Shown: piece by piece, positions 18,255 through 55,755 of the stretch | Layout: each line of letters opens with the position of its first letter | Numbering within the stretch: position 1 is the stretch's first letter | NCBI GenBank assembly: GCA_021496505.1 | Contig: CP053031.1 | Span: forward strand, 124,001-188,000 | From: Thermoleophilia bacterium SCSIO 60948 | GTDB lineage: Bacteria; Actinomycetota; Thermoleophilia; Solirubrobacterales; 70-9 | Length of the DNA: 64,000 nucleotides | Direction: 5' to 3' | Notes under the pieces: model-generated | What the model was told of the DNA's origin: nothing | The model's input: only the letters and a program-made list of their open reading frames with translations | Databases searched by the model: none | Translations under genes and position numbers: made by a program

Positions 18255-18557
18255 AGGGGTGCAGGGGGTGGCGTTCCGTTCGGGGCGTCGCTGGTGAGTG
18301 CGGCACGTGGTCTGGCTGCATCGAGGGGATGACCCTGGGTGCGCTGGGTGGGTTCGGGCGCTTTGCGGCGGAGCAAAGGTGGATGGGTGCCCCTATAGGG
18401 CTCCAGGGTGACTTTGCCTGACCGGAGTCCCTCCGCGCGGCTTCGAACCCGCACGGAACCCACGCGAAGGCCCACGGGAGACAGACCAGCTCCCGACCAA
18501 AGCCCAGCTCCGGTCCCCTACCTGACTTGGCCACCCCGCCGGCGGACGACCGCCGAC
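18255..18557 (-). repeat. Dispersed structured repeat, copy A
   Basis: About 300 bp filling the space between the DUF4267-like gene and the clpB promoter, read on the minus strand. It begins with a perfect hairpin CGGCGG-TCGT-CCGCCG (18555-18540). It contains GGGAG...CTCCC and a 9-bp stem around GTTCGAAG (TCCGTGCGG/CCGCGCGGA), then a block of 34 bases identical to copy B that includes the palindrome CCCTATAGGG (18391-18401 region). It ends in a pyrimidine-rich CACC/CACCC stretch. Copy B lies at 39191-39537 in the opposite orientation. Reading frames are not conserved between the copies, so it looks like an RNA or mobile miniature element rather than a gene. Confidence 0.8.
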
Positions 18558-18584
18558 AATCCGAGCTCTAGGACGAGCGCGCCC

Positions 18585-18998
18585 CTACTTCAGCCGCTGC
18601 GACAGCCACGCGCCCATCGCCGTGGCCGGCACCGCGGCGCCGAGACCCAGCAGCGCGGTCTGCTTCGGACCTCCGGCTTTCGCGACGAGGGCGAACGCGG
18701 CGCTGTCGCCGAGGTCGGCGAACGTGATCGCGTTCGTCGCGCGGCGCAGCTCGTCGGGGTCGTCGAGGACCGTCGCGTGCCAGACCCCGAGGATCAGGTC
18801 GCGGGCTCCCGCCATGCGCGCGAGCGTCAGCTCGGCCGTGCTCGGCTCGTCCCCGAAGCCGAGCACCTTCAGCGCGAGCTTCGGTGCCAGCCAGATGCCG
18901 GTGCCGATCGCGATCCGCCCGCCGGCGAGCGTGAGGGCGACGAGCTTCTCCTCGCGGGTCAGCGAGCGGCGGCGGGTGAACGAGTCGAACAGGGCCAT
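18585..18998 (-). CDS. Small membrane protein, DUF4267-like
   Basis: 137 residues with about three to four hydrophobic helices: LVALTLAGGRIAIGTGIWLAP, ARMAGARDLILGVWHATVL, LGDSAAFALVAKAG and LLGLGAAVPATAMGAWLSQ. The 'R...aRdl.lG' pattern resembles DUF4267, an integral-membrane family of unknown function. The start ATG at 18998 follows a TAGGGT box by 6 bases. It is transcribed toward clpB but separated from it by the structured repeat, so it is probably not in the heat-shock unit. Confidence 0.75.
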   Translation of the reverse strand: MALFDSFTRRRSLTREEKLVALTLAGGRIAIGTGIWLAPKLALKVLGFGDEPSTAELTLARMAGARDLILGVWHATVLDDPDELRRATNAITFADLGDSAAFALVAKAGGPKQTALLGLGAAVPATAMGAWLSQRLK

Positions 18999-39144: not shown

Positions 39145-39190
39145 GGCGGGTTCGGGGGCTCGCGCGCTCGGCGCGTTCAGGGCTCGGTTT

Positions 39191-39537
39191 GTCGGCGGTC
39201 GTCCGCCGGCGGGGTGGTCGAGTCAGGCAGGGGACAGGAGCTCGGTCAGGTCGGGAGCTGGTCTGTCTCCCGCGGGGCTTAACGCGGGTTCCGCGTGGGC
39301 TCGGAGCCCCGCGGAGGGAGCATTGGCCAGGTGGTTGCAGAGCAACCGGATCCGACCAACGCCCCTCCGAAGACGTCTTGGGAGCGAGGCAAAGTCACCC
39401 TGGAGCCCTATAGGGGCACCTATCCGACGATGCCTCGTCACCGACCGCCCGAACCCACCCCAGCGCACCCAGGTTCTTTCCCTCGGTGCAACCAGACCAG
39501 GCGTCGCACCCACCAGCGACGCCGCGAGCGGGACGCA
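39191..39537 (+). repeat. Dispersed structured repeat, copy B
   Basis: About 347 bp downstream of argF, same element as 18255-18557 but on the plus strand. It opens with the same hairpin CGGCGG-TCGT-CCGCCG (39193-39208) and keeps GGGAG...CTCCC and the stem TCCGCG...CGCGGA, in which a T-G pair of copy A is a C-G pair here. It carries about 50 extra bases with the hairpin GGTTGC-AGA-GCAACC, then the 34-base identical block with CCCTATAGGG around 39404-39414. The rest aligns to the same CACCAGCGACGCC end. The whole 435-base gap to the next gene holds no convincing coding region. Confidence 0.8.
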
Positions 39538-39579
39538 GGCGCCAGGCGCCTAGATCGAGCCGGGCCGGAGCCCGCCGGC

Positions 39580-46176: not shown

Positions 46177-47739
46177 ATGGGAAGCCTCGAATCGCACAAC
46201 CCCGCGACCGGCGAGCTGATCGGCTCGGTGACCACGATCGAGCCCGACGAGGTCGCCGGCGTCGTAGCCGAGGTCGCGGAGGTCCAGCCGCTGTGGGGAG
46301 CGATGTCGCTCGCCGACCGTGCCCGCTACATGGAGCGCGCCGTCGACGTGCTCGTCGCCGAGCTCGACGACGTCGCCCGGCTGCTCTCCGAGGAGCAGGG
46401 CAAGCCGTTCGTCGAGTCGATCGCGATGGAGGTCCTGCCGACCGTCGACGCGCTGCGCTGGTGCGCGAAGGAGGGTCCGAAGATCCTCGCCGACGAGAAG
46501 ATCCCCTACCCACAGGCGTTCCTGAAGACGAAGCGGAGCTTCTTCTCCTACGAGCCGCTCGGCGTCGTCGGCGTGATCGCGCCGTGGAACTACCCGTGGT
46601 CGATCCCGTTCGGCGAGGTGGCGATCGCGTTGATGGCCGGCAACGGTGTCGTCCTCAAGCCGGCGAGCCTGACGCCCCTGCTCGGCGAGAAGATCGCCGA
46701 GATCTTCCGCCGCGCCGGCTTCCCCGAGGGTCTCGTGCGGGTCGTCCACGGCGGCGGCAAGATCGGCGCCGCGCTGTGTGAGGCGCCGACCCAGAAGATC
46801 TTCTTCACCGGCTCGGTCGAGGTCGGGCGGATCGTCGGCGAGGCCTGCTCTCGCAACCTCAAGGGCTCGGTGCTCGAGCTCGGCGGCAAGGACCCGCAGA
46901 TCGTCTGCGCCGACGCCAACCTCGATCACGCGATCTCGGGCTGCGTCTGGGGCTCGTTCGCGAACGCCGGCCAGACCTGCTCGGGGATCGAGCGCACCTA
47001 CGTCGTCGCTGACGTCGCCGAGGAGTTCCTCGCCGGGGTCGTGCGCGAGACCGAGGCGCTCGAGTGTGGAGACCCGCTCGACCCCGACACCGAGATCGGT
47101 CCGATGGTCTCCGCCGAGCAGGCCGAGCTCGTCACCGAGCTGATCGACGACGCCGTCGCCAACGGTGCTCGCAAGCTGACCGGAGGCCCGCGCGAGGTCC
47201 CCGGCTTCAGCGGTCGCTTCATCGCCCCGACCGTGCTCGCCGACGTGACGCCGGACATGCGGATCATGCGCGAGGAGATCTTCGGACCGGTTGTCCCGAT
47301 CATCACCGTCGCCGACGAGGAGGAGGCGCTCCGGCTCGCCAACGACTCGCAGTTCGGCCTCGGCGCGTCGATCTGGACCCGGGACCGCGAGAAGGGCGAG
47401 CGGCTCGCGCGACGGATCGAGTCGGGGATGGTCTGGATCAACGACCACTCCTACTCCCACGGTGCGGCGCAGTGCTCGTGGGGCGGGATCAAGGACTCGG
47501 GGATCGGCCGCTCGCACTCGAAGTTCGGCTTCTACGAGTGCTGCAACATCAAGCACGTCGCCTGGGAGCCGAGCATCGTCCGCGACCTGTGGTGGCAGCC
47601 GTACGACCGCACGGTCAGCGACTCGCTGCGCGCGACCGCGCGGATCCTCTACGGCCGCAACGGGGTTCGCGGCAAGGCGCTCCGCGAGGGTGTCGGGCCG
47701 ATGCTGAAGCTCACCGCGCGCACACTCAGCCGCCGCTAG
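46177..47739 (+). CDS. NAD(P)-dependent aldehyde dehydrogenase
   Basis: 520 residues, ALDH superfamily. Motifs: VIAPWNYPWSIPFGEVAIALMAGNGVVLKPA (cofactor Lys), FTGSVEVGRIVGEACSR, LELGGKDPQIV (general base Glu) and FANAGQTCSGIERTYV (catalytic Cys). IMREEIFGPVVPII and the FGLGASIWTRD segment follow. About 40 extra residues at the C-terminus (WQPYDRTVSDSLRATARILYG...) are typical for an actinobacterial subgroup near succinate-semialdehyde and long-chain aldehyde dehydrogenases. The natural aldehyde is not evident. Confidence 0.92.
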   Translation: MGSLESHNPATGELIGSVTTIEPDEVAGVVAEVAEVQPLWGAMSLADRARYMERAVDVLVAELDDVARLLSEEQGKPFVESIAMEVLPTVDALRWCAKEGPKILADEKIPYPQAFLKTKRSFFSYEPLGVVGVIAPWNYPWSIPFGEVAIALMAGNGVVLKPASLTPLLGEKIAEIFRRAGFPEGLVRVVHGGGKIGAALCEAPTQKIFFTGSVEVGRIVGEACSRNLKGSVLELGGKDPQIVCADANLDHAISGCVWGSFANAGQTCSGIERTYVVADVAEEFLAGVVRETEALECGDPLDPDTEIGPMVSAEQAELVTELIDDAVANGARKLTGGPREVPGFSGRFIAPTVLADVTPDMRIMREEIFGPVVPIITVADEEEALRLANDSQFGLGASIWTRDREKGERLARRIESGMVWINDHSYSHGAAQCSWGGIKDSGIGRSHSKFGFYECCNIKHVAWEPSIVRDLWWQPYDRTVSDSLRATARILYGRNGVRGKALREGVGPMLKLTARTLSRR

Positions 47740-47768
47740 CCACGCTCCGCGCGACGACCTGCACCCAA

Positions 47769-47790
47769 CCCCCCACTGTGGGGGGATTTC
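47769..47790 (+). terminator. Rho-independent terminator after the aldehyde dehydrogenase gene
   Basis: CCCCCCA-CTG-TGGGGGG stem followed by ATTTC. It separates the aldehyde dehydrogenase gene from the haem operon. Confidence 0.75.
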
Positions 47791-47833
47791 TGCGGGTCGT
47801 CCGTCGCGAGGGCCGCCGCCGCGCGCTCGGTGT

Positions 47834-55665: not shown

Positions 55666-55694
55666 CGGCCCGGACCCGCGGGCGCGGTCTCCGC

Positions 55695-55743
55695 GTCGAG
55701 GGACGATCCGTCGCCACCTGGTGGCCGCGGATCGTCGCTCGAC
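55695..55743. terminator. Long bidirectional hairpin between birA and the helicase gene
   Basis: Imperfect 49-base hairpin: GTCGAG..ACGATCCG..GCCACC on the left pairs with GGTGGC..CGGATCGT..CTCGAC on the right. Both flanking genes converge on it. Confidence 0.65.
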
Positions 55744-55755
55744 CCGGGGTGGGAG

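Follow-up and report, generated by a model that had tools for sequence, protein, structure and literature searches.

Mosaic intergenic repeats of a Thermoleophilia bacterium share a core palindrome with the flanks of an AbiEi-nuclease gene

Two intergenic gaps of the window, the 64,000-nucleotide stretch of the Thermoleophilia bacterium SCSIO 60948 genome analysed here, hold copies of one mosaic repeat, the core palindrome of which also lies on either side of a gene encoding a predicted fusion of an AbiEi winged helix to a nuclease. We observed the pairing of such genes with palindromes, the dispersal of the palindromes family by family, the mixing of modules within the repeats and the presence or absence of one gene cassette between two genomes. 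We think it probable that these repeats are mosaics of the REP/BIME kind and that cognate AbiEi-nuclease proteins recognise the palindromes and probably use them as the substrate for mobilisation, which would make the AbiEi-nuclease the mobilising agent. A wider proposal, which we hold tentatively and a little short of even confidence, is that solitary AbiEi-EDxHD nucleases spread their own flanking palindromes, together with mosaics, genome-wide in much of the phylum, as an undescribed class of mobile repeat.

The original prediction, that the same element occupies both gaps in opposite orientation, was borne out, copy A lying on the minus strand and B on the plus strand. The features of the window are as follows:

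18267..18568, minus strand: copy A (c01) of the mosaic element, 302 bp, between the DUF4267-like gene and clpB
18373..18417, minus strand: core palindrome of copy A, 45 bp, with 3 mismatches to the dyad pattern given below
18540..18555, minus strand: left-arm hairpin CGGCGG-TCGT-CCGCCG of copy A, read from the sequence
39180..39540, plus strand: copy B (c02) of the mosaic element, 361 bp, between argF and a convergent gene
39193..39208, plus strand: left-arm hairpin CGGCGG-TCGT-CCGCCG of copy B, read from the sequence
39321..39388, plus strand: optional central module of copy B, with the hairpin GGTTGCAGAGCAACC, without counterpart in copy A
39389..39433, plus strand: core palindrome of copy B, 45 bp, with 1 mismatch to the dyad pattern
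55693..55745, plus strand: solitary palindrome, with a convergent gene on either side, of the family found at the AbiEi-nuclease locus L143

Copies A and B are 83–86% identical over both halves, and the halves of copy B each gave E-values of 2.5e-38 or better in a nucleotide search of the genome, far beyond chance. The identical block common to the two copies measures 33 bases (34 had been counted by eye) and includes CCCTATAGGG; the hairpins CGGCGG-TCGT-CCGCCG and GGGAG...CTCCC, also predicted, were found in both. The central module of ~67 bp is present in copy B and absent from copy A.

The whole-genome search that had been suggested as a check located the element at 13 places in the 3,421,728-bp genome, namely 12 recognisable copies (c01–c09 and c11–c13) and a left arm only (c10), as judged by nucleotide search. 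Covariance models built on the left and right halves recovered 8 and 12 copies in this genome, respectively. The modules follow the order left arm (~140 bp, bearing the two hairpins just named), optional central module (~67 bp, present with its hairpin in 7 of the 12 copies), palindrome (45 bp) and right arm (~105 bp), with many departures from it: c09 carries an additional palindromic module, GCCGGTTCGACCGCGTAGAGCGGCTCAAACGGC, a version of which occupies the place of the palindrome in c05; the left arm is mostly gone from c03 and c11; an internal piece of it is missing from c06; and in c10 the left arm is joined to a palindrome of another family. All 13 places are intergenic, nine of them between convergent genes (for c03, the left neighbour was identified directly in the sequence), while c01 and c13 lie between codirectional genes and c09 and c10 between two gene starts. 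Copy c04 separates the convergent genes serS and msrB, which are 345 bp apart, whereas the stops of the same convergent pair in the relative G007 are 4 bp apart, a spacing consistent with insertion. Neither terminal inverted repeats at the element copies nor clean or regular target duplications at the copy ends, the junctions of which are approximate, were found, and a nucleotide search of the same genome returned no longer relative of the element ends.

Two side observations concern the surroundings of the copies. The stop codons that adjoin c01–c13 are TAG in 20 of 20 cases, against 27 of 54 for the genes of the window (window positions 18585, 39144 and 39580; L041–L051); the window has few CTAG sites (31), and several of those near copies coincide with stop codons. 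Copy c07 follows pntB, and in the relative G008 a fragment of an AbiEi-nuclease gene (G008:C132:8722-9618) lies directly after pntB.

The right-half covariance model also matched two places 0.9 kb apart in the same genome, which proved to be two copies of the core dyad, GCANNGTC-N6-GTGCCC-N5-GGGCAC-N6-GACNNTGC (45 bp), on either side of a gene:

L089 1423-2319 (G000:C1:2714422-2715318): AbiEi-nuclease gene of 298 codons, between two dyad copies
L089 1401-1445: dyad overlapping the start of the gene
L089 2306-2350: dyad overlapping the end of the gene

With up to 3 mismatches allowed, the dyad occurs at 13 places in this genome, 11 within element copies and the two that flank the gene, and the reversed dyad, used as a control, had no match there. 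The pattern also hit one locus in each of four relatives with 2–3 mismatches, which we took as chance. Around the AbiEi-nuclease gene the element's long arms are missing, and this counts against our preferred explanation.

The product of the gene at L089 carries AbiEi_4 and AbiEi_1 domains according to Pfam, which also places DUF559 in seven and MTES_1575 in six of eight aligned paralogs. In the predicted structure (mean pLDDT 87.6), residues 7–191 match AbiEi of Streptococcus agalactiae (6y8q, Z 12.6), and residues 197–298 match NGO0050 (Z 13.1), the catalytic domain of I-Bth0305I (3r3p, Z 12.5) and Vsr (1cw0, Z 11.6). On this model, the protein is an N-terminal AbiEi winged helix followed by a C-terminal EDxHD/Vsr-like nuclease. 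Residues E202, D229, H247 and D256 are invariant in all eight paralogs and would form the catalytic set. The unit of palindrome, gene and palindrome (~1.0 kb) lies between tRNA-Ser(GGA) and a pncB-like gene; in the relative G005, only ~24 bp separate tRNA-Ser(GGA) from the pncB-like gene (protein 71% identical). At this syntenic site the cassette is cleanly present in one genome and absent from the other, with gain or loss both possible.

This locus is one of ~10 AbiEi-nuclease genes in the genome, and several of the other paralogs are likewise bracketed by a near-identical pair of palindromes, of wholly different sequence from locus to locus. We scored the similarity between upstream and downstream flanks of the same locus, within 560 bp, at loci picked by similarity to one protein or to the eight paralogs. 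Scores of at least 23 were reached by ~24 of 70 loci in a first set and by 24 of 48 in a phylum-wide set, for which 400 cross-genome pairs had a 99% quantile of 19 and a maximum of 23. Of 118 distinct loci from ~40 related genomes, 48 reached this score, whereas among 43 control genes taken from the window just 1 did (Fisher p 4e-7); the flanking pair was undetected at the remaining 70 loci. Ranking all loci gives a weaker result (p 0.017) since the signal is limited to the subset with a detectable pair. The dyad score exceeded the 99% quantile of shuffled sequence for 19 of the 23 palindromes tested. A scan of GTDB that started from one AbiEi-nuclease protein returned a single locus, its patterns being too specific. 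Two further loci may be described here. At L143 (G000:C1:1859321-1860336), the gene appears split into two reading frames and near-identical palindromes still bracket it, so that it is probably a dead copy that keeps its flanks; at L319 (G410), the AbiEi-nuclease gene lies between inverted arrays of one repeat family, with ~75 bp per unit.

The palindromes are also dispersed away from the genes. When 23 flanking palindromes were concatenated and searched in seven genomes, copies distant from the gene were found in six of them, the seventh, G014, having none among the matches listed; likewise among the matches listed, each palindrome matched solely the genome of its own gene. The relative G040 holds two families with at least 10 dispersed copies each, and a family in G002 counts about a dozen or more copies, mostly as tandem pairs ~61 bp apart, which at L276–L281 are direct, as in BIMEs. 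Three families of the genome under study have at least 5, 4 and 3 extra copies, respectively, among the matches listed. One of these dispersed copies is the 53-bp palindrome at 55693-55745 in the window, which is identical to the L143 flank at 47 of 53 positions and whose two neighbouring genes both end in TAG; at least four further copies of this family lie elsewhere in the genome. Another palindrome of the window, at 47751-47803 and just past a gene end at 47739, resembles that of the AbiEi-nuclease locus L140 at 33 of 53 positions. In G040, palindromes lie within longer repeats of 100–200 bp, and arms are common to different palindrome families; mosaic elements like those of the window are therefore not unique to this genome.

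The particular element of the window, by contrast with this wider pattern, is confined to its own genome among the relatives and collections covered by our sequence searches. Nucleotide search of 60 relatives gave short weak matches only. The one same-genus genome covered is 54% complete. The left-half covariance model, run on 399 genomes of the class, had one match (E 0.06), and in 100 relatives nothing beyond isolated weak matches came from the right-half model; we took the weak matches of these models outside the own genome as chance. The exact core pattern had no match in GTDB contigs or in the viral contigs of IMG/VR.

Few intergenic repeats are as common in bacteria as REP palindromes. 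The arrangement described here resembles REP/RAYT systems and BIMEs (PMC2817692, PMC3733652) in that the gene of a DNA-cutting enzyme sits between two imperfect palindromes and the same palindrome is dispersed in many intergenic copies of that genome, in tandem pairs and mosaics. It differs in the enzyme, here an AbiEi winged helix with an EDxHD/Vsr-like nuclease instead of an HUH Y1 transposase related to IS200/IS605, and in the palindromes, which are longer than REPs (about 42–55 bp), form pairs in both relative orientations owing to their near-symmetry, and, where inspected, have no constant GT(A/G)G head (GTAG) beside them. With a different enzyme and no GTAG head at the palindromes inspected, we regard the system as REP/RAYT-like and not as a member of that group. 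AbiE type IV toxin–antitoxin systems share the winged-helix AbiEi domain; the S. agalactiae AbiEi protein binds its own promoter at inverted repeats of 23 bp with a 3-bp spacer (PMC3985639), a 23-3-23 bp palindrome close in size to those found here. Unlike in AbiE, a nuclease is joined to the AbiEi domain here, and the palindromes are also downstream and dispersed. The L089 gene has tRNA-Ser and the pncB-like gene as neighbours and no AbiEii (DUF1814) toxin gene beside it, and we therefore do not class it as an AbiE toxin–antitoxin. The nuclease part has the fold and the invariant E, D, H and D of the EDxHD homing endonuclease I-Bth0305I and of Vsr; unlike EDxHD homing endonucleases, the gene lies outside any intron or intein, is AbiEi-fused, and occurs once with many palindromes rather than as one gene copy per site. 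In six of the eight paralogs it also matches the Pfam family REase_MTES_1575 (PMC3710099); that source places the family inside a large HEPN-containing protein, unlike here, in passages that mention no palindromes.

A mechanism can be proposed on this basis. The AbiEi part would bind its own palindrome, the EDxHD nuclease part would nick or cut it, and repair or strand exchange would place copies of the palindromes, along with adjacent arms, at further intergenic positions. A single gene could in this way sustain a large set of non-autonomous repeats, a role that RAYTs are believed to play for REPs.

The palindromes that bracket the gene also have a regulatory reading, as operator and terminator and not as parts of a selfish system. 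The upstream palindrome would then be an AbiEi operator, the downstream one a terminator, and the dispersed copies bidirectional terminators or stabilisers of 3′ ends between convergent genes. AbiEi indeed represses its own promoter by binding a palindrome of comparable size there (PMC3985639), and nine of the 13 copies lie between convergent gene ends. We nevertheless consider this regulatory account unlikely; it leaves unexplained why near-identical palindromes stand on both sides of the gene, why each paralog has an unrelated one, why copies occur in genome-specific bursts, what the long mosaic arms are and why the nuclease residues are retained. Alternatively, the element could be a MITE belonging to an ordinary transposon and carry an unrelated palindrome as a passenger, the autonomous partner being lost or unfound; this would suit the size of ~300 bp, the several truncated copies and the restriction to one genome among those searched. 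It appears quite unlikely to us: the core shares homology with the palindrome pair around the AbiEi-nuclease gene, it is swapped for other palindromes in c05 and c10, and the absence of terminal inverted repeats and regular target duplications leads us not to class the element as a MITE. The mobile miniature element of the original prediction is retained as a mosaic of palindromic modules, without terminal inverted repeats or clean target duplications; with its core flanking an AbiEi-nuclease gene, it is grouped with REP/BIME-like repeats and not with the MITEs of DDE transposons. Insertion at CTAG (or TA) with target duplication would account for TAG stops on either side, uniform in the 20 adjoining genes against half of the window genes, and CTAG is found near several copy ends; we give this reading almost negligible weight, as the distance to CTAG varies and the site is missing at many ends.

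The other half of the original prediction, a new family of structured RNA (a 3′-UTR element or sRNA), draws on the numerous hairpins and on the position of copies just downstream of genes. We judge it very improbable, and selection on RNA structure was not supported by the covariation test, the truncated mosaic copies or the Rfam check, which found no match in the window. Changes on both sides of a pair are almost lacking, at 3 of 63 predicted pairs: 1 of 39 in the left half, a level equalled in 102 of 500 shuffles, and 2 of 24 in the right half, reached by 13 of 500 shuffles with slid controls giving an equal count. Many predicted pairs are broken, whole helices are missing from some truncated copies, and at a pair of the core palindrome that is T-A in some copies, roughly half show an A-A mismatch. 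Note that the high share of paired cells mirrors sequence identity. The T-G to C-G difference in the central stem, put forward as pair-preserving, alters one side only and is thus not a compensatory change. The occurrence in one genome only among those searched also speaks against an RNA family.

In the open-access papers searched, we found no prior description linking AbiEi, DUF559 or MTES_1575 proteins to palindromes, REPs or mobility, and the RAYT transposase is there the sole dissemination machinery tied to REP palindromes. If the mobilisation of palindromes by AbiEi-nucleases is correct, a second, unrelated enzyme family would have the same layout of gene, palindrome and dispersed repeat, and such systems would have had multiple origins. 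The abundant AbiEi/DUF559/MTES_1575 proteins, which current annotation lists as antitoxins or as unknown, would also gain a function open to test, and the dispersed intergenic palindromes of these high-GC genomes would be accounted for.
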